Source: Thelephora terrestris
Lineage: Eukaryota; Basidiomycota; Agaricomycetes; Thelephorales; Thelephoraceae
Direction: 5' to 3'
NCBI GenBank assembly: GCA_015956445.1
Contig: WIUZ02000005.1
Location: 1,302,001-1,366,000, forward strand
DNA length: 64,000 nucleotides
Each line of letters begins with the position of its first letter. Position 1 is the stretch's first letter. The notes below the pieces were generated by a model, which had not been told where the DNA came from, did no database searches, and saw only the letters and a list, made by a program, of their open reading frames with translations. This document shows positions 219 to 18,928 of the stretch, piece after piece. The position numbers and the translations under genes were made by a program.

Positions 219-2384
219 CTACAAACGAAAATTTACGGCAGGTCCTCGCGAAGGCTTGGGCGGACGAGGGCTCGTCGAGAAGACGTAGGGAGTTCCAGTC
301 TTGGGATCTCTGACATGAATCTTGTGAATACCGCCAGCGTGGCTGATATCCATGCAAGATAGGACGTCAAAGAAGGGTCTACCAAGAAGAACCTCAAAAG
401 GAGCGTCCTCAACAACCTGGATCTGCAAGAAAACAGTGATCTGTCCTAGAGTGACAGGTTGCTGCTCGACCATCCCGAGGGTCAGAGTAGTACCACTGTT
501 CGCAGACTCCATAGCCATCGCCTTGTTGGCAGTGATAGGAGACCGAAGTTTCTCCCAGATATCCTTCCGCATCACGACAATTTGCGCTCCGCTGTCCAGA
601 ATGCACTCAGGTTCGACTCCTGGTGCGAAGGTAGGATAGATGACTCGTAGCGGGAGGGAGGGAGCAGCAGAGGAAGTCGTCGGGTCGTATTTGTGGACGT
701 CGAGATAAACTGCGGGAGAATCGGGCTCCAAGAAGGAGGTAAGGTAGGAATCCGTAGAATCCTTCGCGATAAGGTTTGCCGCAACCTTTCGCGTCGAGAC
801 CAAGTCCTTGACATGCTTGCGCGCATCCGTCGAGACAGCCAGGATCTCGCGAGCTGAGATCTGGACCTTAGCATCTAGAGCCCTGTCAATGACGTCGTTG
901 ACATTGACAGAGGACTCAATCGCAGAGTGGTAGCGATGCTTCGAGTCATCGGCAGAAGGCTTGGGGGGCATGTCGAGAGGCTTCATAGGACCTTGGGGAC
1001 GAGCGGGAGGATCTACAGGTGCTCCAGGCTTCCCAGCGAGGTGAGGAGGGGTATCCCGATGAGGGAATGGCTTTAGGGGAACTCGCTGGCCGTGGATATT
1101 CGGCTGAGGGGGAGCGGGAGCAGGAGAGGAAGCGGGAGGAGGAGCTGGGGCCTTCTGGCGGGAAGGGAACCCAGTCTTGCGAGGAGGGACCTCAACGCCA
1201 TCGAACTGTTCGCGACGAGCCTTCTGAGCTTCGAGAAGAGAGTTTATCTTTGCGTGCATAACCTGGATCTCGTCGTCGGTCTCATTGGGCTCAAAGGAAG
1301 AGACCTCGACCTCAAAGGCGTACTCGTCGTTGCTCTCGAAGAAGTTGGTCGCGGCGGGCTCGTACTGGTTCCTCTGGGGGTTGCGACGTTTCCAGTCGGC
1401 GTAGTTGTCAAGACGTTCGCGCATGCAACTGCCAGGAACCGTTCGAGGGAGGAATCGACCATCGGGAAGAGTGATCTTGTTATCGCTGTTCCTAATGATC
1501 TTTCCCTGCTGGAGGTACTGCCCGACGATGGGACAGACACGGAGGAAGTGGTCGGGAGCGTTGCAGAACATGCAGTAGCTCTGAGGACGAGGCTGGGGCT
1601 CCCACTGGGGGGGGTTTTGTGCTACTCCTCCCGGAGTAGGGTAACCATCCGTCCTGGGATACTGCTGCGTCGCGACGGGAGGGGCTGAGTTGCGCTGAGT
1701 CTGAGCGAGAAGGGTGCCCATCATCTTCAGCAGTTCCTCCATCTGTCCATTCTTCTCGACCTTGATCTCCGGTTCGACCTTTATCTCGCTGTCGGGATCT
1801 CGGGAATCCACAGCAAAGATAGCGGCCTCGTGGAGGTCCTCCAAGCTATAGCCGTCAGCGGGACGAACGTCGGGCTTCTTTATCGCGAGCCTCTGCTTCA
1901 TCAAGGTGCGGATGAACTGCGGGAAACCCTTTAAGTAGAAGGCATTCCGCTCGCGAGTGGAGAGACGATCCTGCGCGATAAGATAGTCCGAGATCGTGGT
2001 GAACTTCCGATAGTATGCGCCTACTTCGTCCTGAGACATTGTGCGGAAGCACTGGGTGGCCTCCATGTGTCTGTGGAGGTCCATGATGCTGTAGCGACGA
2101 TCGCTGAGTAGGTGGGGGTAGCGCAGACGTACTTCCTCCCTAAATTCGTCGAGGGTAGGAGGGGGAACGCGACCAGGAGCCATGCAAGCGACATTCTCCC
2201 AGTTTTCGCTCTCGTCGCCACCATAGGAGATCGCCCACTCAATAGCATCAGCGTCTGTGAGTCCCGCACGCTTCGCGAGCTCCGAGACATTCTTGAAGAA
2301 GGCCTTGAAGCCTCGCTCATCCTCTCGGAATTTGGGAGCGTCGCGAGTGTGCGAGAGAGGCATGTAGAAGGGAGGTGCTGCCAT
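219..2384 (-). CDS. Gag-protease polyprotein of Ty3/gypsy copy A
   Basis: Structural Gag followed by an aspartic protease. The start chosen is the ATG at 2384 (product MAAPPFYM..., 721 aa) because it has a strong ACCATGG context. The frame stays open upstream to a TGA near 2700 but holds no other ATG. A CCHC zinc knuckle (C-X2-C-X4-H-X4-C, CMFCNAPDHFLRVC) lies about 270 residues in, after a capsid-like region; a Pro-rich linker follows. The retropepsin active site ILDSGAQ is at about residue 597, with a downstream LLGRPFF flap-like block. No stops or shifts are seen, so this copy may be recent. Copy B's gag aligns throughout its C-terminal half. Confidence 0.85.
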   Translation of the reverse strand: MAAPPFYMPLSHTRDAPKFREDERGFKAFFKNVSELAKRAGLTDADAIEWAISYGGDESENWENVACMAPGRVPPPTLDEFREEVRLRYPHLLSDRRYSIMDLHRHMEATQCFRTMSQDEVGAYYRKFTTISDYLIAQDRLSTRERNAFYLKGFPQFIRTLMKQRLAIKKPDVRPADGYSLEDLHEAAIFAVDSRDPDSEIKVEPEIKVEKNGQMEELLKMMGTLLAQTQRNSAPPVATQQYPRTDGYPTPGGVAQNPPQWEPQPRPQSYCMFCNAPDHFLRVCPIVGQYLQQGKIIRNSDNKITLPDGRFLPRTVPGSCMRERLDNYADWKRRNPQRNQYEPAATNFFESNDEYAFEVEVSSFEPNETDDEIQVMHAKINSLLEAQKARREQFDGVEVPPRKTGFPSRQKAPAPPPASSPAPAPPQPNIHGQRVPLKPFPHRDTPPHLAGKPGAPVDPPARPQGPMKPLDMPPKPSADDSKHRYHSAIESSVNVNDVIDRALDAKVQISAREILAVSTDARKHVKDLVSTRKVAANLIAKDSTDSYLTSFLEPDSPAVYLDVHKYDPTTSSAAPSLPLRVIYPTFAPGVEPECILDSGAQIVVMRKDIWEKLRSPITANKAMAMESANSGTTLTLGMVEQQPVTLGQITVFLQIQVVEDAPFEVLLGRPFFDVLSCMDISHAGGIHKIHVRDPKTGTPYVFSTSPRPPKPSRGPAVNFRL

Positions 2385-3140
2385 GGTCTGCTGTGTGGGT
2401 GGAGGGCTGGGAGAAAGTGAAGCTATGGACGAAAGAGAAGAGACCGTGGAAGAGGGAATATGAAACGGGGATCGCGATGAATCTATCAGGGAAGTAAGGG
2501 AACTGGAATCTAAAAGATCAAAATCGTCGGGAACGTCCAAAGAATTATCGGGAACAGCGGGATAAGGGGGAGAGAAACCTTCAACGAAAGGATCACTAAA
2601 AGTGGGTGGGAAGGGTGGGACTGTCTCAGACAGATAATCCCGAAGGTCAGAGAGACGCTTCTCTGCGCGAGTAGAGGGAATGATGGAAGACTTAATGAGT
2701 CAAAGGAGCGGAAAAACCGGTCCCGGCGTGGGTTCCAGATGAACTTGCCACAAAGCCTTCGGAGTCCGAGAGGGCAGAGATGGCAGTTAGAAGGTCGGGT
2801 CCTCGGTTCAGAGGCGCGAGCCTCTAGGGAATCTGCGGGAAGCGAATGAACAGCAAGAGGGAAAGTCGGGATACGAACGGGAGAACAAGGCAGAGGACAA
2901 CGGGAAAGCCAGAGAACGAAACTACCGATAACAAACAAAGGGAAACGTCGGGATACGTCGGGACAACAGAGTCAGAAATCGGGACACCAGCGGGACACGA
3001 GAGACCAGAGGGACAACGAGAACGAGGGCGAGACGACGAGAGAACCGAAGGGAGGACCGTAGCAACGCTGCTAGGCCTCAGAAGAGAGAGAGAGAGAGGA
3101 AACGCTGCTGATTGATTCTGTGGTCTATCGAATACAGGGG

Positions 3141-3150
3141 CCTTTATATA
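3141..3150 (-). promoter_or_regulatory. TATA box of gypsy copy A LTR
   Basis: TATATAAAGG on the minus strand, about 760 nt upstream of the Gag ATG, followed by a CT-rich stretch typical of a fungal start region. It is the probable core promoter of the element's LTR; the transcription start is inferred. Confidence 0.5.
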
Positions 3151-3501
3151 CAATGCTAAGGGCTCTGAGAACGAAGGGAACCAAAGGGAACGAACCAAAA
3201 TGATGTCAAGAGACCTTATGACGAGTCTATGACATGGGGAAGGCGGGGGATCGAAGGGAATGATGAAGGAAAGGAATGTGGTTGAGAAACGAACCAGAGG
3301 GAGGTCTGGAGTCGCAAGCAGGGCGATCGATCGAGACGTGATCGGGACGCAGGGAATGGAGATAGGGAGATGAAAGCTAAAGGTAAGAGCCGTGATGGAG
3401 GATCGGGAAATGGTCGGGACACGATCGGGACTGGTCGGGACGTAATCGGGACGAGGTGTGAAGGAATAAGAGTCTGAGAGAAACTATCTACTAGAGAACG
3501 C

Positions 3502-3564: not shown

Positions 3565-4359
3565 AGGGAAAACGTCGGGAAGTCGCGAGGGAGAATAGGG
3601 AGAGAGAGGGACGTGTGGCGAAGTGAAGGGACAGGCAAATCCTCGTCGGGACAGTCGAGAATGCTGAGGGAGGTCATCCAGACCTCGCGCAGCGGTTGTC
3701 GATAGTCGAGAGAAGGTCGCGATTCCGGATAGTGTCCGAAATACGGTCACGACACCGGTGCAGCCTACCGAAGAAGATAAAATCAACGAGCGGTTCAACA
3801 TCATGAAAGCCGAGCTCAAGTCTCTTCGGGAAGCCCAAGTCCTAGCTACGCAGCAGGGTTGCCGAGAAAAGTTCGACGGAGTCGAAGTCCCCCAGAGAAA
3901 GACTGGTCCCCCTCCCCACAGGAATCCTCCTGTTCCCCAGCCTAACATTCACGGCCAGCGAGATCCATTTAATCCAATCAACAAAGATCCACCTCCTCAT
4001 CTCGCCGGGAAACCAGGAGCTCTCGCAGGAACTTCCCAGAATCGCCCACAAGGTCCAATTAAGCCTATCGCTATGCAGCCCAAGCCATCCGCCAATGAAT
4101 CTAGAACTTGTCAGCGTGCTGAATTTTATTCCCTTTTTGAACCATTTTTACACCCAACTTTCGCCCACTTTCCTTACCTATACCCCTTTCTTATCTTATC
4201 GTTTCCCTTATCACGACTCACACGTCATCAAGGAACACAGACAAGGACACTGATGATATTACACACGTGCGCGCAGCGAAGACACAAGACTACCAAACCG
4301 ACGGAGTTGAATCCGCCCGGACTCTATGAACGAGGACTAAGGCGTACAAACCCTAGTCG

Positions 4360-6111
4360 TCAAGACCTGGTCTGCCAGTACTCCTCAGCACTGGCAACCT
4401 CCTCCTCCGTCCCCTCCGAGGCATTCTCGTCGACTTCCTCGTCGACCATCTCGACAACCCGAGCTTCCTCCAGACGATGAGCTACGGCCAACTGAACTTC
4501 GGCGCGCAGGCGGTTCCTCGCTGAATCGACCATAGTCTGATCCAGAGTCCTCTGGACTGACCAACCCTCCACTCTCTCGGTCAGTTGAGCCACCAGGCGA
4601 ACGGCCTCCGCTGCACGCTGGACCGACAAGAGCGTCAGGTCAGTTAAGCCGTTCACGTCGACGGACTCCACCGGAATCAGCTCGCCGCAATCCACGCGAC
4701 ACTGTAGCATCGTCGCATCGAAATAGGACGGTGGACTCAATGTCTCCACCCTGGCGGACAACGTTGGGATTACTGGGACGCATACGGTGTGCTGGACGAA
4801 GTGCCCCACGATAAGGAACCCAACAACGAGCACGGATAGAACATTGCCCACGCACCGGCGAGATTGACGGAGGCGGAATCGGAACAGCCACCTCGTTCTC
4901 CCCCGCGTACTCCAACTCAGGAGAACTGCTAACTGGGTTCACCGCCGTCTCCTCGGACGTCTCACGGACGACCTCTTCCCCGCCATCTGTGTGCACCGGT
5001 GTACGGTACGAACCGTCGGAGGCTAAAAAGGATGTCAGTGGACAAAGTCAAATATGTCAACCGACATCCCACCTATGGGAGAAGCCATCCGATCCGGTAT
5101 CGACTCGTCTTCGGACTCGTCGCGAACTGCAGCCACCGAACGAGTACGGCAATGGCACAACCGCTCGCTCATGGACTCCACCCGAGCGCCCAGCAATGGT
5201 AAAGCGTCGTCCAACGTGTCAACCTAGAAGTGGTATGAGCTCCCTCGGATCAAGACCAGGGGAAGGCACACCGACCTTGGTGTCCAACTCATTTAAGGCC
5301 CTTCGATGACGATTGAGCCGTCGGTCGACCTCGATCAGGTCCCGCTGAATGGTGTCGTCCCGTTCCTTCAAGGACTCGACCAACCGGTTGTGTTCTTCGC
5401 GCATCGCCAGCATCTCGCTCTCAAACGTGACGCGGAGCGTATCGTTCATCAGGAGCAGCGTCTTCTTCGTGTCCAACGCTTCTGAGTACATCCTACGGGC
5501 ATCATCCTTCGCTTCCTTCACTGATCGCTTCAGTCGCTCGTTCTACAAGCCTGTCAGTGTTATCCCACAAGCGGGATGCACAGACCGACTCACCGCTTTC
5601 TGTTCGGTCCTCAAAAGGAACCAAAGGCGGTGACCAACGGCTGCTGTATAATGTTGCGAACGAGTTGCCCCCGGCCACCTTCCTTCGCCGTTTCCCAAGT
5701 CGTAGATTCCCATCTTCAGAAGACCCCACAACGATGACGCCACCGGAGTCTCCCATGGCATACGCAACTCGGTTTCAAACGTGACCCCGCGCATAGACTC
5801 CTGTAGCTTGTGGTCAATCAAGTTGTGGTACCACAACTCGTCGTCCATGGTCAAGTAGTTGGGAGGCTTGGCTATCGTCGCCTCCAGCTGTCGGGCATCC
5901 ACCTTGTCGGCGGCCGCGAAGATCTACGATGCGATGTCAGTTGTTGCCAGCAAAACGGCGACACGTGACGTCGCACCTCGCGATAACTGGGGTACGCCAC
6001 GTTGGCGTTCGGAAGGAAGTAACCCTTGTTCTGCACAGACCGAGGATCCGCGGACTCAATGGTAGCGGTGCTGTTCTCAGCACGGAAGACCTGATCGGAG
6101 ATCATGGGCAT
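4360..6111 (-). CDS. Coiled-coil protein encoded inside TG..CA element, copy 1
   Basis: Unrecognised 493-aa protein from six inferred exons: 6111-5977, 5923-5594, 5542-5276, 5223-5073, 5022-4856, 4791-4360. All joins keep one open frame. The second exon carries a DDELW...MRG...GIYD signature shared with copies 2 and 3; the third is a long charged coiled coil (residues about 156-244). A Pro-rich linker with ELEYA and an acidic C-terminus follow. The final exon is exactly 432 nt, as in copy 2, though sequence identity between the copies is low. The gene is antisense to the LTR-like promoter. There is no similarity I can name to Gag, Pol, transposase or envelope proteins. The last intron (4855-4792) is the least certain join. 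Confidence 0.65.
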
Positions 6112-6563
6112 GATGGATGAGTAGTTGTTTGGTGGGATTGTTGGTTTGGGGAAGAAGGGAGTGTGATGGATCCAACGGCCGGTTCGCGCTACGCTTTATC
6201 CGACCATCGGTAGCACTCGCGTCCTATTCGCCATTGGATCGGTCCATCGTTTCACCGGTCCAGACTCCTCATACATTCGCCTTCGACATTCATGCCCCAC
6301 TCAGTCTTTTGTTGTCCCGATCGGACGAGCTGACGCGTCGTCCTCTCATTGGTTCGTCCTTGCATGTGATATTATCCTTTGTCATTCCTTTCCCACACGA
6401 CGTCATGACCCCTTTCTTATTTTCTCACGAACCCTGACCCATTAGTCTTTCCTTTATCATTTCTATTCTATACTCCGGGCCGCTTACTGTTCTTGCTTAC
6501 TCTCGGCCCTTCTTTACTCCGAGTTATTATTAGATAGGGTTACCTCTGTCCCGGCCGCTCTCC

Positions 6564-6569
6564 TATATA
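6564..6569 (+). promoter_or_regulatory. TATA box of TG..CA element copy 1
   Basis: TATATA on the plus strand, 466 bp before the element's 3' end, the same relative place as the TATAAG boxes of copies 2 and 3. This spacing fits a U3/R boundary and sets the LTR-like orientation, opposite to the internal gene. Confidence 0.5.
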
Positions 6570-8943
6570 GGTACCAGTAGAGTAGCTGAGGACTCCCCAT
6601 CTTTGATATCTCGGGAAGTCCTCTTCTCCTTGCAGCATCGGTGTATTTGCTGTAGGCCACTGAAGAGCTTATCGAGTAACTCTCTGAACACGTTCGCTCT
6701 CCTCTCTCTCTCAGCCTTGCGTTAAGAATCGGCGAACGCGCTTACGAAAAAGAGTTCCTTGCCGCTCTCTTAATCAAGCACCAGTTTGAGGCGCCATCCT
6801 CGGGCTCTTATCTCTGCCCTCAGAAGAAGATAGGGATTGATCTGATAGAGGCTCGGCACTCCTGCTGTGAATTCGGACAACCTACCGGAGAACGCTCGTC
6901 CCTCGCGTTTTGGACCACGTAGACTTTGGGTGGATATAGGGAAGTCGTTCCCCCTTTGCCCCATTGTTTCTTGTTGGTTGGAGTTGCGACTCACCAACAG
7001 CACTGGTACCTGAAGGGCGAAGAGTGGCCCTGACAGAACTCGCTACCACGCCGCTATCGAGGACTCAGCCAAAGCCTCCAACATTCTCGAACGAGTTCTC
7101 GATATAAAGATTCCGGTATCTGCTCGCGAAATCCTCGCCGTCTCCAACGATGCCCGGAGACAGGTGAAGGACCTTGTAACCTCTAAAAAGGTTTCGGCGA
7201 ATCTACTGGAAGCAGGGACCACTGACTCTACTTATAGGATCGCGGAAACTTCCCCATTCGACGTCTATGAGTACTCGTCTCCATCTGCCACTCCGTTCCT
7301 CCCGCTACGGGTGATCACTCTCAACCTCGCTCCAGGAGTGACACCCGAGTGTATCCTCGACGGAGGATCGCAGATTGTGGTCATGAGACGCGACGTCTGG
7401 GAGAAGCCCCGTGTACCTATCACGGCGGACAGAGCTATGAAGATGGAGTCTGCGAACTCCGGGACGACTCTCACTCTCAGAGAAATCGAGAACTTCCCCG
7501 TGAAGATTGGACCAGTTACCGTCCACCTTCAGATCCAAGTCGTCCCTTCAGCTCCATTCAAAGTCCTTCTCGGAAGGCCCTTTTTCGATGTCCTCAACTG
7601 CACTGAATACAGCCGAGCCGGCGGTGTTCACAAGATCGAAATAAAGGACCCCGAGACAGGAACTCCATATGTGTTCGCCACGCAGCCGCGCCAGCATAAG
7701 AACTCTAAGGGATCTGCGGTAAATTTTCGTATGTAGACGGTCCTTCGAGAGAGATGTCCTCCTCTCGGCAACATTCCCAGCCCCGGGAAACGTTCGCCCT
7801 CGTCGAAGTTCCGTCGCGATTACCCAGTTCTCTTAGAGCCACTTCTGGTTCATCTGTACCCCCTTCACTTTCGTCGTCTTTCCCCCAGTTCGATTCTCCC
7901 CTTTCCCCTTCGTCGCCTGTGACTCGTTTTGAATCTATTGCTCCTTCTTCTTCGTTGTGGACCGTTGCTTCTTCTTCTTCCTCGATTTCTCCCTCCTCGT
8001 CTGCGAATGTCCTTTCCCCGGCGCAACTACCGCTACCTGTTTCCGCCTCCATTTTCTGGGACAATAGTGAGTCCCTTCTCGAGCCTACTGTACTTCCCGA
8101 TAATGCATCTATTTTGAGCTCGTATTCCCCCGTTCCCTCTGCAAGTTCCTCTGAAACTCGGCATGTATTTTCACCTTCGCATGTATCCTCTTGCTTTTCT
8201 CTCCACTCACCTCAACCTGTATCTTCTCCTTCGCATGTGCCGATCTTCGTTTTTCCGGATTCCTCTCTCCATTCCTCCCTTCCTGTATCTTCTTCTTCTC
8301 GTGTCCCGACTTTGATTCCCTCTCTCTCTCTTTCTCAGCATGTATCTTCATCTTCGCATGTTCTGTTTCCTTTCGATTCTTCACTTCGTTCGCCTCCTGC
8401 CAGCGTTCTCCACACCTTCTTCCAGTCCCTATCCTCCTTGGATCGTCGGACCGCCTACTCCTCCTTCGCTACCCTTCGCAACGCTATTCCTCCTTCACCC
8501 ACCAATCCCTACACTCCCATCCAGCTTGCTAGCCTCTGGATCTCCGAGCAGTTCACGGAGAATCCCTTTATCGAGCTAGAACGGGATGGTGTGGCTTTCC
8601 TCTACAAGAAGGTTGCGAACAAAACTAGGCCGGTTGCGACGACTCTTCCAGAGAATTTCCGAATTATTCGCCATGAGCATCCTGACCCTCTCGCTGGGCT
8701 ACTAGATCTTCCGGTCCACCCTCCTGACTTCCGCCCTACCGGGAGGTTCACTAGCGAGAGACGGGACAATATGGCTATCGGAAAGGACTTACTTTGGCCC
8801 GAGGAAATCAAGCTTGCCGAGTGGATCGTGTCCAAACACAATTCAGCCTTTGCCTGGACAGATGACGAACGAGGATCTTTTGACCCCCAGTACTTTGCCC
8901 CCATCGAGATTCCGCATATCTCTCACATCCCTTGGGTACTTAA

Positions 8944-9896
8944 CACTGGGGGCAAGGGGTCAAATACCCAGTGGGTACATGCTGAATACATTGTGATCAC
9001 AGTCAAAAAGTGATCACAATGTGCCCAGTGGGGAAAATTTGAATACATTCAAAATGTACCTGGCCATGTGAACCCAATGTGCCCAGTGGGCACATTTTGA
9101 TTGTGATCACAATGTACCCATCAATGTGATCTCAATGTGCCCACTGGGGACATTTTGATTGCGATCACAATGTACACATCAATGTGATCTCAATGTGCCT
9201 GCTGTGCACATTTTAATTTCTTTCACAATGTCCCCATCAATGTGTTCCCAATGTACCCAGCTCATTACATAATAGTTTCTTTCACAATGTTGTCCACAAT
9301 GTGTCCAGCATGTGGCTGAGCCACTCATTCAAAATTCTTTCACAAAGTATCCAGTGATGTGTCTAGAATGTGTACAGCCATACACATAGTGATTTCTTTG
9401 AAAGTTCATGATGAAATTGAACAATATTGTGATTACATTGTGATTACTTCAAAAAGAACCCCCTGGGGACATTATGGACACATCACTGGATAATCTTTGA
9501 AAGAATTTTGAATGAGTGGCTCAGCCACATGCTGGACACATTGTGGACAACATTGTGAAAGAAACTATTATGTAATGAGCTGGGTACATTGGGAACACAT
9601 TGATGGGGACATTGTGAAAGAAATTAAAATGTGCACAGCAGGCACATTGAGATCACATTGATGTGTACATTGTGATCGCAATCAAAATGTCCCCAGTGGG
9701 CACATTGAGATCACATTGATGGGTACATTGTGATCACAATCAAAATGTGCCCACTGGGCACATTGGGTTCACATGGCCAGGTACATTTTGAATGTATTCA
9801 AATTTTCCCCACTGGGCACATTGTGATCACTTTTTGACTGTGATCACAATGTATTCAGCATGTACCCACCGGGTATTTGACCCCTTGCCCCCAGTG
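8944..9896. mobile_element. CACTG-ended foldback (MITE-like) element A
   Basis: 953 bp with terminal inverted repeats CACTGGGGGCAAGGGGTCAA and a 3-bp target duplication TAA. Almost the whole element is one inverted repeat: two arms of about 450 bp around a short centre near 9395-9460, so a single strand could form a giant hairpin. The arms contain degenerate direct repeats of about 60 bp built on AATGTGCCCA and the palindrome ATTGTGATCACAAT. There is no coding capacity. CACTG ends plus a 3-bp duplication point to the CACTA (CMC) superfamily, to which fungal Plavaka-type elements are assigned; the mobilising transposase is not in the window. Confidence 0.85.
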
Positions 9897-10205
9897 TAAG
9901 CAAGGTCCGATCCCTCGCGGCATCCTTCGAGAAGTCATAAAAATCATCGAAGACAAGTGGCGGTCTGGAGTGTACGAACCCTCTTCTTCATCGTACAACA
10001 GCCGCTGGTTCTGTGTCTTCAAGAAGGATGTTCTCCAAGGTGACATCACGCACATTCTTCGCCCTGAGATTCCACATTGGACTCAGCCCTTTGCCGACGA
10101 TGTTCCGATTAAAGGCCCCAAGACTTGCTACAAGTTCCCCGACGGATCCTTCGAGACGATTGACGGAAACTCCAGTATCCGTCGATTCGTCTGGGAACAT
10201 CTTGA

Positions 10206-10706
10206 CACTGGGGGCAAGGGCACCTGGAATCAGTGATTACATCTTGATTACATGGTGAGTTCATGTGCACTTTTCAATGATTGTAATCACTGATTCCAGG
10301 TTGATTACATTTCAAATGTTACCTTGACATGTAATCCAACCAATGTCCACCAATTCCATTTGGAATGTTCTCAACAAATGTTTCTGGGATGTTTTTGACC
10401 TGTCGGCAAAAATGATACTGCAATGTAATCAGCATGTTCTTCAATCGTCTGAGATGTAATCTAAATGCACTCAAAAACATGAGATGTTTTCACAATGTAC
10501 CCACTGGGCACATTCAGGAAACATTGCTTGGGAACATCTTGAGAAAATTTCAAATGGAGTTGGTGGCAACAGTTGGATTACATGTCAAGGTAACATTTGA
10601 AATGTAATCAACCTGGAATTGGCGATTACAACCATTGAAAAGTGCACATGAACTCACCATGTAATCAAGATGTAATCACCGATTCCAGGTGCCCCTGCCC
10701 CCAGTG
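10206..10706. mobile_element. CACTG-ended foldback element B
   Basis: 501 bp, ends CACTGGGGGC(A)AGGGGCACCTGGAATC, 3-bp duplication TGA. The inverted arms are about 140 bp (10206-10345 and 10563-10706) with an unrelated AT-rich middle. It shares only the terminal CACTGGGGGCA..GGG block with elements A and C; the rest of the arms (repeated GATTACAT motifs) differs. It is probably a separate non-autonomous family moved by the same enzyme. Confidence 0.8.
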
Positions 10707-11968
10707 TGAGGCCGTTAATCGAATCATCCATCGCGTTCAGTCCTACGGCGCCACCTTCAGCGGAAAGAAAGCATTCATTGGCGTTCCGCAGGCTGACATT
10801 GTCGGACATGTGTGCACCTACAAAGGAAGAATCGTGGATCCTTCCCGAGTTCAGGCACTTCAGGACTGGCCTATCCCGAAGAGCGTCTCCGAGGTTCGTG
10901 CGTTCCTAGGAACGTGTGGAGTCTTGCGAATCTTCATTAAAGGATATACGCTCATCGTGCGGCCGCTGATTCAGCTGACTCGAAAGGACGTCCCCTTGGA
11001 GATCGGTCCCCAGCAGTTAGAGGCTTTCGAGAGACTGAAGCTAGCCGTGCTCAGTTCTCTGTCAGGAACATGGTATTTTTAAACTTTTTATAACACGCTC
11101 TTTCTTCGAACTCTTCTTACCACTTCTTATGTTTGAATGCTTCACATTCCTTATCCTTCACACCAATCATTCAAAACACACAAACACGCATACATTCACG
11201 GCAATACGGAACAACATGGCTATACTGATGCTTATACAACGTCCTCAAAAGTCGACTCTATCTACGGCAGGCCTGAAGGTCATCAACTGTCCATCCCGGA
11301 GATCGTAGTGCTGGCCCCTCCTCGCAAGGACCTCCCCGAACATGGCGTCACCGTCTTCGGCACTCAGCTGAATGACCAGTTCAAGCTGATAGGAAGAGAT
11401 GCCTTCGAGCGGACCGATCAGCCTCCCAGATGTCACCGAACTCTGGAACACTTGGTCCCACATCTCCATCACCGGGTGATTGCTCGGCAACACTATCGAC
11501 GTAGTCGGCGAGCGACCCTCTGTCAGGGCCACTCTACCCCAACAACTACCAGTGCACTGAGCCGACTCCGCAGAGTACTCACTAGTCCAACTAGCTTGTG
11601 AGAGAACGATCACGTCTCTATTCTTCCGGTAGGTTGTCCGAGGTCACTACAAGTCAGGTCGAAATCCTAAAGAGAAACCCAACCTAAACCGTACTTCGTT
11701 CGGTTTAACAAGCAAGGGTTGATCCCTACAACAGGATTGATGACTCCACCAGTTGATCGACTGGACGCTCGAGGTGTTCTAATATGACTGCTGGGAGTCT
11801 ATAGTTACGAGGCGCAGTTGACGCGCAGAGCGGGAGGGAGAGCAGATGGGGGATGTCTTGGATCAAACAAGAAACTCTGACTTGTCCTTAACTGCAACTG
11901 GGCTGAGAAGGGCAGAGGATTTCCTGAGGTAACAAAACTAAGGTACTACGATACAGCCACAGTTGCTA

Positions 11969-11974
11969 CTTATA
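11969..11974 (-). promoter_or_regulatory. TATA box of TG..CA element copy 2
   Basis: TATAAG on the minus strand, 449 bp from the element's 3' (left) end; the counterpart of 18195-18200 in copy 3. Confidence 0.45.
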
Positions 11975-12824
11975 CTAAAGGAGTGGCCATGACGTCAATA
12001 CCTTAATATACCCTTATCAAGTCCAGAACAAAGGGAGATAAGGAGTGTGAGAACGCTAAGTAAGGGAAGCGAACAAGGTGACGCGTGGGAGAATAAAGGA
12101 CAAAGGGCCTTACTAGCGTGTGAAGGATTGCATAAAAGATAAGGAATGTCCGCATGAAACATAGGGGTAAAGATAACACTAGTCCTAAAAGAAAAAGGGG
12201 CATGGGGTCATGAAAGTTCGTACCTGGGGATCACACCCAAGGGTCAGGTGGCAATCTCCCTTTACATAGTTGTACCAGCGGATTCGGGAGTAGAGCCATG
12301 CAAACATCCCTTGTTGTCTGTAGGCGGTAACAGCATCACGGACTAGTGGCAACCTCAACGTACGTCCGAACATGAGGAGGTCGGGCCTAGACTCATGGGA
12401 CATGAGGGATTACAGATTCGCTGGTGTTTCACGCTAACGGCTACTCCACATGCGCTGGGCTAACCAGAAGGATCCTAAGGCGATGCTTCCGAATAGCGGC
12501 GAGTCCTTCCTCCGGTTAGGAGACTGTGATGTGACTGTCCACGTGTGTGATCAGGGTCCAGGGTTGATCGTAATCGTAAAGTCATGAGGGGTCGTAAAAA
12601 GGGGTTCGTGATGTCATAAAGTGGTCATCAGGGTCTTGAGACCTATTTTTAGTGCGCGCGCGTTCTAGGCGTTCCGGAACGAAGTTCTTCCAAGGCCGTC
12701 CCGCGGGCCGAGGTGTCAGCTTGATGTAGTAAGCCAACGATGATGGTACAGGGGCGGAAGTTGATGTGACCCGGACCAATGAGGTTCGTCGAGGTAGGTC
12801 ACGTGAAGGATCACCGATCTAGGC

Positions 12825-12830
12825 TATAAG
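12825..12830 (+). promoter_or_regulatory. TATA box of the internal gene of copy 2
   Basis: TATAAG 73 bp upstream of the ATG at 12898, followed by a CA/CT-rich leader. The internal gene therefore appears to have its own promoter, divergent from the LTR-like TATA about 850 bp away. Confidence 0.5.
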
Positions 12831-12897
12831 AAGGACGTCTTCTTGGAGCCATCCTTGATCAGCAACACCAGCAACTTCCCCATCATCTTACCACAAC

Positions 12898-14634
12898 ATG
12901 TCCTTCCCCAACAACCACACCTACAAAGTCACCAATGGTATCTCCACCATTTCTCGCATCGACCGTCGTGCCGCTGCCCGTAAGACCTATGCCTGTGCGG
13001 CAGGGACTCCCTATACCACAGATGATCAGGTATGGGGGAGACCTAGAGCTTAGTAGTTTGCACTAACGCCTTCCTCTAGGTAGAGGAACGTTCTTTTGGC
13101 GTTGATGTCAAACTAACGGCTTCTAGATCTTGGAGGTCGTCACGGAGGTGGACGCTGAACGTCTCAGGGAGACAATGCCTCATTTGAAGGGTCTGACCTG
13201 GGATGATGAGCTCTGGGTCCGTACGATCATTGCCGAGAAGGTGGCCTTCCAAATGAGGGGTAGGTTCGGAGAGTTGGAGCATCCGATCAAGAAGGAGCTC
13301 TGGTACACCCTACAAAGGGGAATCTACGATCAGGACCTATTGGAGCACGGAGCGACCGTTCCTCGAGCCGTCCGCCATGCTACCGCTTCCACTAGCCTTT
13401 TGTGGTCACTCGTTCGTGAAGGAGAAAGCCGGGTAGGTTTTCTGTCTGAATATTCGAGTATGACTCTCGACTAATCAGACTGCCTAGGTTGAACGATTGG
13501 AGCGGGAGGTGAAAGAGGCGAAGGCAGACGTCCTTCGTCTATCGGCAGAGGGTCTTCAATTGAAGGAGACCTTGGCTGCCTTCCAGCAGGGGACGAACGA
13601 GGCGTTGGAGGCGATGGTCGCCAACCATCAGGAGTTGATCGCTGGGTTGAAGGTTAGGGATAACAACATTAAGGGGGCGTTGGCCAGGAGGGATGAAAAG
13701 GTAATGCCGCTTTCATCATTGCTTAAAATGATGAAAGCTGACATTTCCTAGACCGAAGAACTCGAGAACGTGGTGGCTGTGTTGACAGCGCAGGTCGAGT
13801 CCTTGCAGGACAAGACCTGTAACTGTAAGGAGGGTCCCAAATTGGTTGGTCAGGGGACAGCCGATGTTCCGTTCGAGTTGGAGTACGCCGACGAGGTGGT
13901 ACTCCCATCGCCTAACCCGTCGTCCTATGCGACACCTCCGATCGAGAACGCGGTTCCCGTTCCGACTCCAGGTCCGGCTTCCACCTTGGCCGCTTCCGAC
14001 AAGGAGAACTGTGGGCGCTGCGTCTTGCAGCCAATCCATCAGTTGGTGAAGATCGAGGATGAGGTCATGGAGGTTGACCGAGCTGAAGATGCTCCGAGGG
14101 TCGCCGAGGTACGTCCGGTGACTAAGGGGCAACGTTGCAGGCGCTCTCGACGCCGTCCTGCTCATCGTATGACTGCATCGGCTAATCCTTACCCTCGACC
14201 AGTTGAGTCGGATGGTGACCAGTCTGGTCGAGGTGGAGGACGAGAGTTCCGCTATCGGGTCAACCGTCCCTACCGACAGGTCGAGTCGGAGATCCAGCTT
14301 CGCCACCAGCGTCGACTCGCAATCCAGGATCCCACCCAGGGGTCCGACGAGGGAGACGGAGGGTCGCTTGCCGACTACGTCGACAGTACTGTCGAGCAGT
14401 CACCCGGTGATGGAGATGTGGGACCAGGTGTTCAGCAGTTCGGTGACATCTGGGAGGCTGATCGGTCCGCTCGAAGGTATCTCTTCCTATCGGCTTGAAC
14501 TAGTCGTTCAGCTGAGTGCCGAAGATGGTGACGCCATGTTCAGAGAGGTCCTAGCGAGGAGGGGCCAGCACTACGATCTCCGGGGTGGACGTTTGATGAC
14601 CTTCAGGCCTGCCATAGATAGAGTCGACTTTTGA
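12898..14634 (+). CDS. Coiled-coil protein encoded inside TG..CA element, copy 2 (intact)
   Basis: Unrecognised 479-aa protein in five exons: 12898-13029, 13127-13432, 13488-13700, 13752-14108, 14203-14634. All introns are phase 0 with GT..AG ends, and most show CTAA(T/C) branch sites. Residues 45-146 hold the conserved WDDELW...FQMRG...GIYDQDL block. Residues 147-217 form a heptad-rich coiled coil (VERLEREVKEA). Then come a short CNC/CGRC cysteine-containing Pro-rich linker and a C-terminal block starting HPVMEMWDQ. The ATG is in good context after a TATA box. Frame and intron positions match the dead copy 3, and in large part the distant copy 1. It is antisense to the element's LTR-like polarity, so introns would survive retrotransposition. 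Function unknown. Confidence 0.75.
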
Positions 14635-16640
14635 GGACGTTGTAGAAGCATTTGTATAGCCAGGTTGTTTCGTATTGCCGTGAATGTATGCGCGTTTGTG
14701 TGTTTTGAATGATTGGTGTGAAGGATAAGGAATGTGAAGCATTCAAAACATAAGAAGTGATAAGAAGAGTTCGAAGAAAGAGCGTGTTATAAAAAGTTTA
14801 AAAATACCATGTTCCTGACACCCTCCGTCTCCCTCATCGGACCCCTGGGTGGGATCCTGCCTTGCAAGGCGAAGCTGGTGTCGGAGTTGGATCTCTGACT
14901 CGACCTGTCGGTAAGGACGGTGGACCCGATATCGGAATCCTCGCTCCTCACCTCGACCAGATTGGTCACCATCTGACTCAACTGGTCGAGGGTAAGGATT
15001 AGCCGATGCGGTCATACGATGGGCGGGACGGCGTCGAGAGCGCTTGCAACGTTGCCCCTTAGTCACCGGACGTACCTCAGCGACTCTCGGAGCATCTTCA
15101 GCTCGGTCAACCTCCATGACCTTGTTCTCGATCTTCACCAACTGATGGATCGGCTGCAAGACACAGCGCCCACAGTTCTCCTTGTCGGAAGCGGCCAAGG
15201 TAGAAGCCGGACCTGGAGTCGGAACGGGAACTGCGTTCTCGATCGGAGGCGTCGCATAGGACGATGGGTTAGGAGATGGGAGTACCACCTCGTCGGCGTA
15301 CTCCAACTCGAACGGAACATCGGCGGTCCCCTGACCAACCAATTTGGGACCCTCCTGGCAGTTGCAGGTTTTGTCCTGCAAGGACTCGACCTGCGCTGTC
15401 AACACAGCCACCACGTTCTCGAGTTCTTCCGTCTAGAAGAAGGTCTTTCAGTTATTGCACAAACTGCAAAGGCTGAAAGACGACCTTTTCATCCCTCCTG
15501 GCCAACGCTCCCTTGATGTTGTTATCCCGAACCTTCAACCCGGCGATCAACTCCTGATGGTTGGCGACCATTGCCTCCAACGCTTCGTTCGTTCCCTGTT
15601 GGAAGGCTGCCAAGGTCTCCTTCATCTGAAGACCTTCCGCTGACAGACGAAGGACGTCTGCCTTCGCCTCTTTCACCTCACGCTCCAATCGTTCAACCTA
15701 GGCAGTCTGATTAGTCGAGAGTCATACTCGAATATTCAGACAGAAAACCTACCCGGCTTTCTCCCTCTCGAACGAGCGACCACAAAAGGCTAGTGGAAGC
15801 GGTAGCATGGCGGACGGCCCGAGGAACGGTAGCTCCGTGCTCCAACAGATCCTGATCGTAGATTCCCCTCTGCAGGGTGTACCAGAGCTCCTTCTTGATT
15901 GGATGCTCCAACTCTCCGAACCTACCCCTCATCTGGAAGGCCACCTTCTCCGCAATTATCGTACGGACCCAGAGTTCGTCGTCCCAGGTTAACCCCATCA
16001 AGTGAGGGATCGTCTCTCTGAGACGTTCGGTGTCCACTTATGTGACGACCTCCAAGATCTAGAAGCCGTTAGTAGGACATCAACGCCCGAAAGAACGGAC
16101 CTCTACCTAGAGGAAGGCGTTAGTGCAAACATACTAAGCTCTAGGTCTCCCCCATACCTGGTCATCGGTGGTATAGGGAGTCCCGGCCGCACAGGCATAG
16201 GTCTTGCGAGCAGCAGCACGACGGTCGATACGAGAGATGGTAGAGATGCCGTTGGCAACCTTGTAGGTATGGTTGTTGGGGAAGGACATGTTTTGGTGAG
16301 ATGATGGGGAAGTTGCTGGTGTTGCTGATCAAGGATGGCTCCAAGAAGTCGTCCTTCTTATAGCCTAGATCAGTGATCCTTCACGTGACCTACCTCGACG
16401 AACCTCATTGGTCCAGGTCACATCAACTTTCACCCCTGTACCATCATCGTTGGCTTACTACATCAAGCTGACACCTCGGCCCGCGGGATGGCCTTGGAAG
16501 AACTTCGTTCCGGAACGCCTAGAACGTGCACGCACTAAAAATAGGTCTCAAGACCCTGATGACCCCTTTATGACATCACGAACCCCTTTTTACGACCCCT
16601 CATGACTTTACGATTACAATCAACCCTGGACCCTGGAACA

Positions 16641-17593
16641 CACTGGGGGCAAGGGGTCAAATACCCGGTGGGTACATGCTGAATACATTGTGATCACAGT
16701 CAAAAAGTGATCACAATGTGCCCAGTGGGGAAAATTTGAATACATTCAAAATGTACCTGGCCATGTGAACCCAATGTGCCCAGTGGGCACATTTTGATTG
16801 CGATCACAATGTACCCATCAATGTGATCTCAATGTGCCCACTGGGGACATTTTGATTGCAATCACAATGTACACATCAATGTGATCTCAATGTGCCTGCT
16901 GTGCACATTTTAATTTCTTTCACAATGTTCCCATCAATGTGTTCCCAATGTACCCAGCTCATTACATAATAGTTTCTTTCACAATGTTGTCCACAATGTG
17001 TCCAGCATGTGCCTGAGCCACTCATTCAAAATTCTTTCACAAAGTACCCAGTGATGTGTCTAGAATGTGTACAGCCATACACATAGTGATTTCTTTGAAA
17101 GTTCATGATGAAATTGAACAATATTGTGATTACATTGTGATTACTTCAAAAAGAACCCCCTGGGGACATTATGGACACATCACTGGATAATCTTTGAAAG
17201 AATTTTGAATGAGTGGCTCAGCCACATGCTGGACACATTGTGGACAACATTGTGAAAGAAACTATTATGTAATGAGCTGGGTACATTGGGAACACATTGA
17301 TGGGGACATTGTGAAAGAAATTAAAATGTGCACAGCAGGCACATTGAGATCACATTGATGTGTACATTGTGATCGCAATCAAAATGTCCCCAGTGGGCAC
17401 ATTGAGATCACATTGATGGGTACATTGTGATCACAATCAAAATGTGCCCACTGGGCACATTGGGTTCACATGGCCAGGTACATTTTGAATGTATTCAAAT
17501 TTTCCCCACTGGGCACATTGTGATCACTTTTTGACTGTGATCACAATGTATTCAGCATGTACCCACCGGGTATTTGACCCCTTGCCCCCAGTG
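16641..17593. mobile_element. CACTG-ended foldback element C
   Basis: 953 bp, nearly identical to element A over its whole length, with the 3-bp duplication ACA (16638-16640 and 17594-17596). It sits in copy 3 upstream of the dead gene's start; copy 2 has the empty site, which confirms the ends. The target triplets TAA, TGA and ACA across the three elements show no fixed 3-bp preference. Confidence 0.88.
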
Positions 17594-18194
17594 ACACACA
17601 CGTGGGCACGGGGTATCAACATTTGGACACTGTGCTTCTAATCGGATAGTAACCCTATCTGATCTAGTTGTGCTTTGGAAGCAGAGTAGGCCCGAGCCGA
17701 GAACGGCGGCCGAAGAATATAATCCCTGGTGCCACTTAGGAAGAACGATATTCCCAGGTGCTAGGCCTAATCAAGACTGGGTCTGATCAAGCGATTACGG
17801 TTGCAACTCCCAGGTTACTGCCTGTTCGTTGGTATCATACCATCTACCGACAACAAGGGATGTGTAGAGTTCCTTCGATCTCTAGCCAATCACAGAAGCT
17901 CAGAGATGGTGCTCACCTGACCCTTGGGTGTGGTCTAGATTCAGGTACGAACTTTCATGACCCATGCCCCTATTTCTTTTAGGACTAGTGTTATCTTTAC
18001 CCCTATGTTTCATGCGGACATTCGTTATCTTTTATGCAATCCTTCACACGCTAGTAAGGCCCTTTGTCCTTTATTCGCCCACGCGTCACCTTTTGTTCGC
18101 TTCCCTTACTTAGCGTTCTCACGCTCCTTATCTCCCTTTGTTCTGGACTTGATAAGGGTATATTAGGGTATTGACGTCATGGCCACTCCTTTAG

Positions 18195-18200
18195 TATAAG
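18195..18200 (+). promoter_or_regulatory. TATA box of TG..CA element copy 3
   Basis: TATAAG on the plus strand, 448 bp before the element's end at 18647, matching the position in copies 1 and 2. Confidence 0.45.
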
Positions 18201-18928
18201 TAGCAACTGTGGCTGTATCATAGTACCTTAGTTTTGTTACCTCAGGAAATCCTCTGCCCTTCTCAGCCCAGTTGCCGTTAAGGACAAGTCAGAGTTTCTT
18301 GTTTGATCCAAGACATCCCCATCTGCTCTCCCTCCCGCTCTGCGCATCAACTGCGCCTCGTAACTATAGACTCCCAGCAGTCATATTAGAACACCTCGAG
18401 CGTCCAGTCGATCAACTGGTGGAGTCATCAATCCTGCTGTAGGGATCAACCCTTGCTTGTTAAACCGAACGAAGTACGGTTTAGGTTGGGTTTCTCTTTA
18501 GGATTTCGACCTGACTTGTAGTGACCTCGGACAACCTACCGGAAGAATAGAGACGTGATCGTTCTCTCACAAGCTAGTTGGACTAGTGAGTACTCTGCGG
18601 AGTCGGCTCAGTGCACTGGTAGTTGTTGGGGTAGAGTGGCCCTGACAATCGGCTTCAGAGTCGCCTGGAAAACGATGCCCAGTCATGTTGGGGAGAGTGG
18701 AAGGGAAGTGCAGAAGGGAAGGCGCTGGCGTGGGCACTGCCTTGCTTCCACCGCGTGGGGTAATTGTGCCTTGGGAAAAAAGTGGGGCGATAAAAGCCGA
18801 TCAATCAACAGGCCGGCATCTCCCAGGAATGATGATTTGTCAAAAGAAGTGCCGACTGTGTCACGCGATATGCCAGCTCATTTCCTTCTGACCTCTTTCC
18901 ACCTGGGTACAAGTCCTCGTCCTCTCTG

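Follow-up and report, generated by a model that had tools for sequence, protein, structure and literature searches.

Antisense accessory genes are already known from plant Retand/Grande elements and from HTLV-1. In the passages describing them, the Retand/Grande gypsy elements carry an antisense accessory ORF that follows pol and precedes the 3′ LTR, TRP28 being present in 97% of clusters (PMC11963269), and the Grande product is nuclear and has its own promoter, going by the title of a work cited there. The word 'intron' is absent from the main text of that paper. As portrayed there, these elements resemble the Thelephora terrestris family described here, in that a gypsy retrotransposon keeps an antisense accessory gene. 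In contrast to their ORF, the gene of the T. terrestris chromovirus is spliced and lies wholly inside the LTR, and TRP28 (PF04195) is absent from the Pfam hits of its protein at E ≤ 1. Among fungal LTR retrotransposons, the crapaud subfamilies of Podospora resemble the T. terrestris family in that U3 varies greatly ahead of the TATA box, whereas the 3′ half is conserved (PMC10787394). They differ in that the passages concerned describe no LTR gene, the word 'antisense' being absent from the main text (PMC10787394). HTLV-1 HBZ, in the source passages, is likewise an antisense gene with a spliced form, and it represses sense-side transcription; it is a bZIP protein, whereas the T. terrestris antisense protein has no bZIP hit at E ≤ 1. 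The exons of HBZ lie mainly outside the LTR. The superantigen of MMTV, a retrovirus, is encoded within the LTR, and its gene has the sense orientation. Among the papers listed in searches of an open-access library, none, going by title and start of abstract, describes a fungal LTR that contains a gene, spliced or otherwise.

The window is a 64,000-nucleotide stretch of T. terrestris DNA, in which a preliminary description had noted three LTR-like elements with TGTCAG..CTGACA ends. These termini are seen in all three copies (4109-7035, 11521-14820 and 11060..18647). The window copies are LTRs alone, without an internal region, and the 5-kb internal region of the GT subfamily has no match within the window. 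Their layout is as follows.

4109..7035, + strand: copy 1, a solo LTR of subfamily GA, 2,927 bp, U3-R-U5 from left to right, identified by its TGTCAG..CTGACA ends and target duplication
4104..4108 (left) and 7036-7040 (right): target duplication of copy 1, GAACT, read from the sequence
6564..6571, + strand: sense TATA of copy 1; predicted transcript start ~6601, R-U5 ~435 nt
11521..14820, - strand: copy 2, an LTR of subfamily GT, 3,300 bp, sitting inversely inside copy 3
11966..11974, - strand: sense TATA of copy 2; predicted transcript start ~11940, R-U5 ~420 nt
11060..11524, + strand: left part of copy 3, covering LTR 1-466
14820..18647, + strand: copy 3, right part, LTR 457-2276, a palindromic insertion, then LTR 2571-3300; gene broken

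The 5-bp target duplications reported for two of the elements are present as GAACT around copy 1 and CCCTC around copy 2 (11516-11520 and 14821-14825), and there is none around copy 3. Copy 3 is interrupted twice, by copy 2 in inverse orientation and by a palindromic element of ~953 bp (16641-17593); ~320 bp between this insertion and LTR 2571-3300 are unlike copy 2. A sense TATA box is present as described, and the distance from its start to the LTR 3′ end, previously given as 448-466 bp, was re-measured as 472, 454 and 453 bp in copies 1, 2 and 3. The transcript start predicted for copy 1 fits the self-priming site that such a start implies.

Their sequence identifies the window elements as LTRs that derive from a chromodomain Ty3/gypsy retrotransposon of the Tf1/sushi type. 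Direct copies of the unit flanking gag-pol, which the preliminary description had proposed looking for, occur elsewhere in the genome; two full-length elements that were read have near-identical 3.3-kb LTR pairs and 5-bp duplications outside each pair: L041/L042 (ATCAC; 100% identity over the 1,982 bp compared) and L043/L044 (TAATC; 99.93% over 3,009 bp). Copy 2 is 94.7-95.0% identical to the LTRs of full-length elements in complete LTR alignments. The pol of L041 is a single 1,367-aa frame in the order protease-RT-RNaseH-integrase-chromodomain (RVP_2, RVT_1, RT_RNaseH, Integrase_H2C2, rve, SH3_Tf2-1 and Chromo, all above Pfam cut-offs), and the 3′ LTR begins ~20 bp past its stop. A Tf1-like self-priming site (PBS), predicted from the TATA position, was matched in 8 and 3 copies of the two subfamilies and in none of the controls; it consists of 12- and 10-nt complements of the predicted transcript's own 5′ end, 2 nt after the LTR. 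This site fits Tf1-like self-priming, with both the priming and the transcript start being predictions. The short inverted ends and the mostly single units would also suit a DNA transposon whose transposase is the antisense protein. This reading, raised as an alternative from the start, is refuted by the LTR-pol-LTR elements, with an open pol frame between near-identical LTRs and the duplication outside the pair, by the PBS and chromodomain integrase, and by the lack of a transposase match at E ≤ 1; we assign it a negligible probability.

The family is evidently young, with two subfamilies (GA and GT) present mostly as LTRs without an internal region. Genome-wide, the 17-base LTR end with at most one mismatch has 599 matches (reversed control, 1) against 11 pol copies, so the bulk of the LTRs can only be solo copies or fragments. 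Among 20 GA relatives of copy 1, 12 retain both ends, 10 of them with a perfect 5-bp duplication. The other eight (L021, L022, L026, L030, L032, L034, L037 and L040) are incomplete, and a chimaeric origin was considered for them; the palindromic element splits the LTR in L026, L030 and L032, and in L034 part of it adjoins the LTR piece, where a GT LTR piece also intervenes. Between GA and GT, RT identity is 75-76% and little LTR DNA is alignable.

The U3 of each subfamily contains a spliced gene in antisense orientation, with a TATA-like box, introns and a stop before the LTR end. An intron-containing antisense gene had been ascribed to every element; this stands for copies 1 and 2, while the gene of copy 3 is broken by a stop inside exon 2 and by copy 2, which splits exon 4. 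Copy 1 has four GT-AG introns (53, 51, 46 and 50 nt) and copy 2 has three (97, 55 and 51 nt).

5977..6111, - strand: copy 1 exon 1, ATG at 6111, with frame constraint
5594..5923, - strand: copy 1 exon 2, the DDELW..MRG..GIYD region; omega 0.09-0.26 in windows inside the exon
5270..5542, - strand: copy 1 exon 3, coiled coil
5073..5223, - strand: copy 1 exon 4, end of the coiled coil and CxC
4856..5022, - strand: copy 1 exon 5, following deposited models
4360..4791, - strand: 432-nt alternative last exon of copy 1 (model P0081); frame constrained only from ~4735 downwards
12898..13029, + strand: copy 2 exon 1, own TATA (GCTATAAGAAGG) ~75 bp upstream
13127..13432, + strand: copy 2 exon 2
13488..13700, + strand: copy 2 exon 3, coiled coil
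13752..14498, + strand: copy 2 exon 4 in its unspliced form, ending at the stop that follows ...FLSA (model P0001); conservation supports this frame best, to ~14380
14203..14634, + strand: 432-nt alternative last exon of copy 2, after an intron at 14109-14202 (model P0007); frame constrained only from ~14400
14820..16289, - strand: copy 3 gene remnant, with exon 1 at 16158-16289, exon 2 at 15753-16058 and exon 3 at 15485-15697

The deposited T. terrestris models that were compared (BJ322DRAFT_ entries) have broadly the same exons, some adding residues at intron 1. The antisense TATA is kept in all 12 GT rows covering the site, a neighbouring base being altered in one. A last exon of exactly 432 nt, singled out in the preliminary description, is reproduced by the deposited models that splice to it, P0007 and P0081. 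Substitutions and metagenome relatives favour the unspliced frame across that intron. The 432-nt exon is a predicted model, supported only in part by conservation. When the intron after exon 5 of copy 1 is retained, the frame continues to a TGA at 4640-4642. Automatically built splice models terminate prematurely at the 3′ end, and the frame change near the C-terminus is not clearly accounted for by any one intron.

The antisense gene is under strong purifying selection in both subfamilies. As had been anticipated for a maintained gene, dN/dS is far below 1, with omega at 0.153 in GA (13 copies, 388 codons) and 0.222 in GT (17 rows, 420 codons); six non-coding GA controls gave 0.88-1.16. Third codon positions have a variability of 0.60 and 0.56, compared with 0.11-0.22 for the first and second positions. 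Among 30 distinct GA indels, none falls in exons 1-5 and nine fall in introns. A chance ORF is ruled out by the codon-position signal, the indel pattern and the controls. CpG mutability as the source of the low omega is likewise ruled out, since the codon-position signal persists without CpG sites (GA variability 0.113, 0.042 and 0.498 at positions 1, 2 and 3). Constraint inside two well-separated subfamilies (omega 0.15-0.22) contradicts the notion of a functionless host gene, recently captured and hitch-hiking in the LTR; the introns and the lack of gag-pol similarity above the Pfam cut-off would agree with it, but homologues exist in metagenomes (two at 69 and 59% identity, and a further, more distant one at E 5.5e-8), and we consider it highly improbable.

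In GA, changes confined to one copy remain constrained (omega 0.25), and exon 2 is free of stops in 139 of the best-scoring 150 of 568 GA candidates and in all of the best-scoring 150 of 601 GT candidates. These observations would be expected if the fungus depended on the protein and the LTRs were its vehicle, a domestication in progress with solo copies kept by host selection. Against this stand the weaker constraint on single-copy than on shared changes (0.25 versus 0.085) and the breakage of three (copy 3, L039 and L023b) among six GT copies in which exons 1-4 could be read, and we regard such host dependence as improbable. The earlier proposition, that a maintained frame suggests a protein that matters to element or host, is borne out by the strong constraint, while host upkeep of single solo copies is not. 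All three GA full-length elements have an open exon 2 in each of their two LTRs, and so, among the matches listed, do the LTRs around at least six of the eight GT pol copies. The constraint can be best explained by selection that would act on transposing lineages. If a trans product were freely shared and supplied by many copies, selection on the gene should have relaxed; the strong constraint counts against this and points to cis preference, bottlenecks or selection at the level of the host.

The antisense proteins of GA and GT share 31% identity over 355 alignment columns, in keeping with the very low identity first noted between copies 1 and 2. The protein was described as lacking gag-pol similarity, and the Pfam search agrees: no family reaches the cut-off, and no gag, DNA- or RNA-binding domain lies above it. 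The T. terrestris clusters matched contain 256 (GT) and 62 (GA) member sequences, summed by hand. Matches outside this species are metagenome or archive proteins, and there are metagenome proteins that keep the coiled coil - CxC - GQR order; viral contigs contained no relative of P0089, the sole query. The two fold models have low confidence, with mean pLDDT values of 50.8 and 48.3; the first predicts a long coiled coil and has no PDB match at E ≤ 0.001.

We give about an even chance to the interpretation that the antisense gene encodes an accessory protein that regulates, in trans, the LTR family to which it belongs. Being antisense to the genomic RNA, the gene would, by established logic, keep its introns through retrotransposition, and its position entirely within U3 would give two gene copies to every new insertion and one to every solo LTR. 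The product would oligomerise through a long coiled coil and carry a basic segment, acting in trans on the LTR family, most likely on transcription or silencing, and solo LTRs could go on supplying it once the internal region is gone. The rapid divergence between subfamilies (31% versus 75-76% for RT), together with the little alignable LTR DNA, would fit a family-specific regulator coevolving with its target. Against the interpretation count the strong constraint, which is unexpected for a freely shared product, the lack of a DNA- or RNA-binding domain above a Pfam cut-off and the low confidence of the folds.

Such a protein could help the element or limit it. Ty1 p22 of yeast is described as a trans factor from the element whose level rises with copy number, and it differs in not being encoded in the LTR. 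By analogy, the antisense protein might disrupt Gag or particle assembly and cap transposition at a dose following LTR number. The 599 genomic ends that could set this dose, the 11 pol copies alone beside them and the predicted long coiled coil speak for this; on the other side, the protein has no Pfam gag match, self-restriction is on general grounds rarely favoured by element-level selection, and the LTR number means that the family did amplify. We consider this self-limitation unlikely, though less so than host dependence. We lean towards helping (anti-silencing) over limiting (copy-number control), since selection on transposing lineages would account best for the constraint. VANC proteins of the VANDAL family in Arabidopsis are fast-evolving, family-specific anti-silencing proteins, and their anti-silencing is the functional model we favour for the antisense protein, although VANDALs are DNA transposons.

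LTR-LTR recombination is the usual end of such elements. Tentatively, and with less assurance than for the trans-regulator itself, we suggest that U3 took up a spliced antisense regulatory gene, the LTR becoming a functional cassette, and that after such recombination a few hundred copies would still work in the genome as genes for a family-specific anti-silencing or dose-dependent control factor. Solo LTRs are usually viewed as leftover promoters; here, many hold an open and constrained protein gene, whose product is filed in databases as an ordinary hypothetical protein of a fungus. Lone LTRs left behind can thus still carry an antisense gene whose protein sequence is strongly conserved. If the proposal is true, the family would provide a testable system for a retrotransposon that keeps a regulatory gene after the loss of pol, and it would bear on intron survival in antisense retrotransposition and on a regulator outpacing RT divergence.

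Thelephora terrestris is an ectomycorrhizal basidiomycete, and its 40.6 Mb genome (60 contigs) was searched for relatives of the LTR-like elements. A 17-base motif from the common LTR 3′ end has 599 genomic matches with at most one mismatch, compared with one for the reversed control. In the copies read, two motif types track two subfamilies: GAAGAGTGG marks GA (copy 1, 4109–7035, plus strand) and GTAGAGTGG marks GT (copy 2, 11521–14820, minus strand; copy 3, 11060–18647, plus strand). The coordinates, ends, and target duplications in the preliminary description were borne out with small corrections. Twenty GA copies, each read in a 10-kb stretch, were taken from the best 40 of 205 candidates. 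Both LTR ends are present in 12 of them and perfect 5-bp duplications in ten of those, which are therefore solo LTRs; the eight interrupted or incomplete copies were excluded from alignment. The 400 nt beyond CTGACA showed no similarity in pairwise comparisons of the 20 copies, apart from one 47-bp match, and none to the GT internal region.

Full-length GT elements were located through reverse transcriptase (RT) matches positioned between LTR ends. The element bounded by L041 and L042 comprises a 3,307 bp 5′ LTR and a 5,079 bp internal region, with the target-site duplication (TSD) ATCAC; its two LTRs show no difference in the 1,982 bp that were aligned. The L043/L044 element has the TSD TAATC and an LTR pair 99.93% identical over 3,009 bp. 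A single 1,367-aa frame in the L041 element contains the protease, RT, RNase H, integrase, Tf2-like SH3 domain, and chromodomain, and is preceded by a gag-like frame that contains a CCHC knuckle and overlaps its start. Direct copies of the unit flank a gag–pol region, confirming its proposed identity as an LTR. A DNA transposon is ruled out by the near-identical LTR pairs around pol and the TSD outside the pair.

The L041 internal region starts with GAGTAACAAAACTA, and a 12-nt complement is found 34 nt after the sense TATA start, an arrangement like that of Tf1 self-priming. A GA primer site, predicted from the copy 1 TATA and then searched behind the LTR end, occurs at three exact genomic places, and the GT site at eight (control, 0 for each). 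An independent protein search found pol at these 11 places and no others of this clade; eight copies are 99–100% identical and three 75–76%, the next best genomic match being 33%, and all 11 matches are stop-free. The genome thus has 599 LTR ends for 11 pol copies. Three GA full-length elements (contigs C12, C5, and C23) carry exon 2 of the antisense gene in both LTRs, at a spacing of 8.76–8.80 kb. On C23, at approximately 1,030,000–1,050,000, three LTR genes spaced 9,310 bp apart accompany two pol copies, apparently an LTR–internal–LTR–internal–LTR tandem.

The antisense gene lies in U3, opposite to the sense transcript. Its introns measure 53, 51, 46, and 50 nt in copy 1 and 97, 55, and 51 nt in copy 2, all GT–AG in gene orientation. 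A TATA-like box precedes the start codon: GCTATAA in all 12 GT rows covering the site, and GATAAAG or AATAAAG in 13 GA copies. Across 13 GA copies, which were picked by LTR 3′-end similarity and are hence biased toward young copies, first, second, and third codon positions have a variability of 0.157, 0.113, and 0.603, and the 388 codons give a dN/dS (omega) of 0.153 (101 nonsynonymous and 286 synonymous changes). The GT alignment, consisting of three complete rows and 14 fragments, some being pieces of one copy, gives 0.224, 0.138, and 0.555, with an omega of 0.222 over 420 codons (161 and 297 changes). The identical count on non-coding GA sequence yields 0.88–1.16 (two stretches in three frames each), and the maintenance of the frame suspected earlier is supported by exon ratios well below 1. 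None of 30 distinct GA indels falls within exons 1–5, while nine fall in the 200 bp of intron sequence. The frame is open to at least residue 390 in 12 of the 13 GA copies, L025 having a stop at residue 235. The codon-position pattern persists without CpG sites, although these are hypervariable.

At GA third positions, 0.82 of CpG sites and 0.50 of other sites are variable, and in introns 0.59 and 0.17. Third positions overall exceed introns (0.60 versus 0.25), an excess for which CpG alone does not account. High CpG variability in both alignments is as would be expected if the repeats are cytosine-methylated.

The C-terminus is less uniform than a last exon of exactly 432 nt, as first described. 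The deposited protein models P0007 and P0081 do remove a 94- or 64-nt intron before a terminal exon of that length, while P0001 and P0028 end in the unspliced frame. Constraint favors the unspliced frame across that intron and on to approximately 2300 (GA) or 2860 (GT); only beyond these points is there constraint in the 432-nt frame, its later part giving 0.46 and 0.40. Single windows conflict inside the overlap; for example, GA 2401–2520 favors the unspliced frame. In the metagenome proteins P0085 and P0087–P0089, the unspliced frame continues with a GQR-plus-basic segment, and a genome search with P0089 matches the C-terminal region (E down to 5.5e-8). Both signals would be accounted for if the gene produced two isoforms whose frames overlap.

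A Pfam search of the antisense protein returned no family at or above the cut-off. In protein searches of a 5.8-billion-sequence set, two of the three scoring the best 8,000 candidates, named matches came from T. terrestris only, the rest being metagenome or archive proteins. P0087–P0089 match the GA query weakly (E 0.0065–0.73), but the P0089 genome match strengthens the link. The low identity noted between copies 1 and 2 holds for the subfamilies: GA and GT antisense proteins are 31% identical, versus 75–76% for RT, and the LTR DNAs have only short segments in common, none longer than a 36-bp one at the 3′ end. AlphaFold pLDDT exceeds approximately 80 only in a central helix (residues 150–240 in P0007 and 160–260 in P0081).

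Other elements occur in and around these LTRs.

219–2699, minus strand: gypsy-like gag–protease frame (DUF4100 and gag-asp protease, counting both such frames together)
7014–7736, plus strand: second gypsy-like gag–protease frame, with copy 1 at its edge
8944–9897: near-perfect palindromic MITE-like element, ~953 bp, ends CACTGGGGGCAAGGGG
10196–10716: shorter relative of the palindromic element
16641–17593: near-perfect palindromic MITE-like element, ~953 bp, ends CACTGGGGGCAAGGGG

Copy 1 apparently inserted into the plus-strand gag–protease frame. The palindromic elements are flanked by 3-bp duplications (TAA, ACA); relatives at 95–97% interrupt three of the 20 fetched GA LTRs (L026, L030, and L032), and further copies lie near L021, L023, L034, and L039. 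Eleven GT copies out of 40 scored carry approximately 305 nt unlike copy 2 in place of LTR positions 2285–2571, which lie between the two divergent promoters. Copy 3 deviates at the same stretch (17594–17913), with only a 26-bp match to copy 2.

Changes found in a single copy show a higher omega than shared ones, both in GA (0.25 versus 0.085) and in GT (0.35 versus 0.13). Six GT copies are readable through exons 1–4. Three of these are intact, namely copy 2 and the 5′ LTR from each of two full-length elements, and three are broken (copy 3, L039, and L023b). Among the best-scored 150 copies, the best preserved by choice, exon 2 is stop-free in 139 of 150 for GA (568 candidates) and 150 of 150 for GT (601 candidates). 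We read the omega contrast and the broken copies as constraint acting on transposing lineages, with older solo copies decaying, which does not imply a need for each solo copy.

Antisense accessory ORFs are described for plant Retand and Grande (PMC11963269) and HTLV-1, a feature common to the T. terrestris element. The crapaud LTRs, also fungal, are characterized by a variable U3 (PMC10787394). A complete spliced gene within a fungal chromovirus LTR was not found in the open-access literature searched. The gene most likely encodes an accessory protein that would form oligomers, be expressed from an antisense promoter within the LTR itself, and act on LTRs of its own family, either helping or limiting the element. 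Antisense placement would allow the introns to survive reverse transcription, and placement in U3 would double the gene at each insertion and rescue it when LTRs recombine. Constraint this strong despite the many copies argues for some preference in cis or for selection at times when copies are few.
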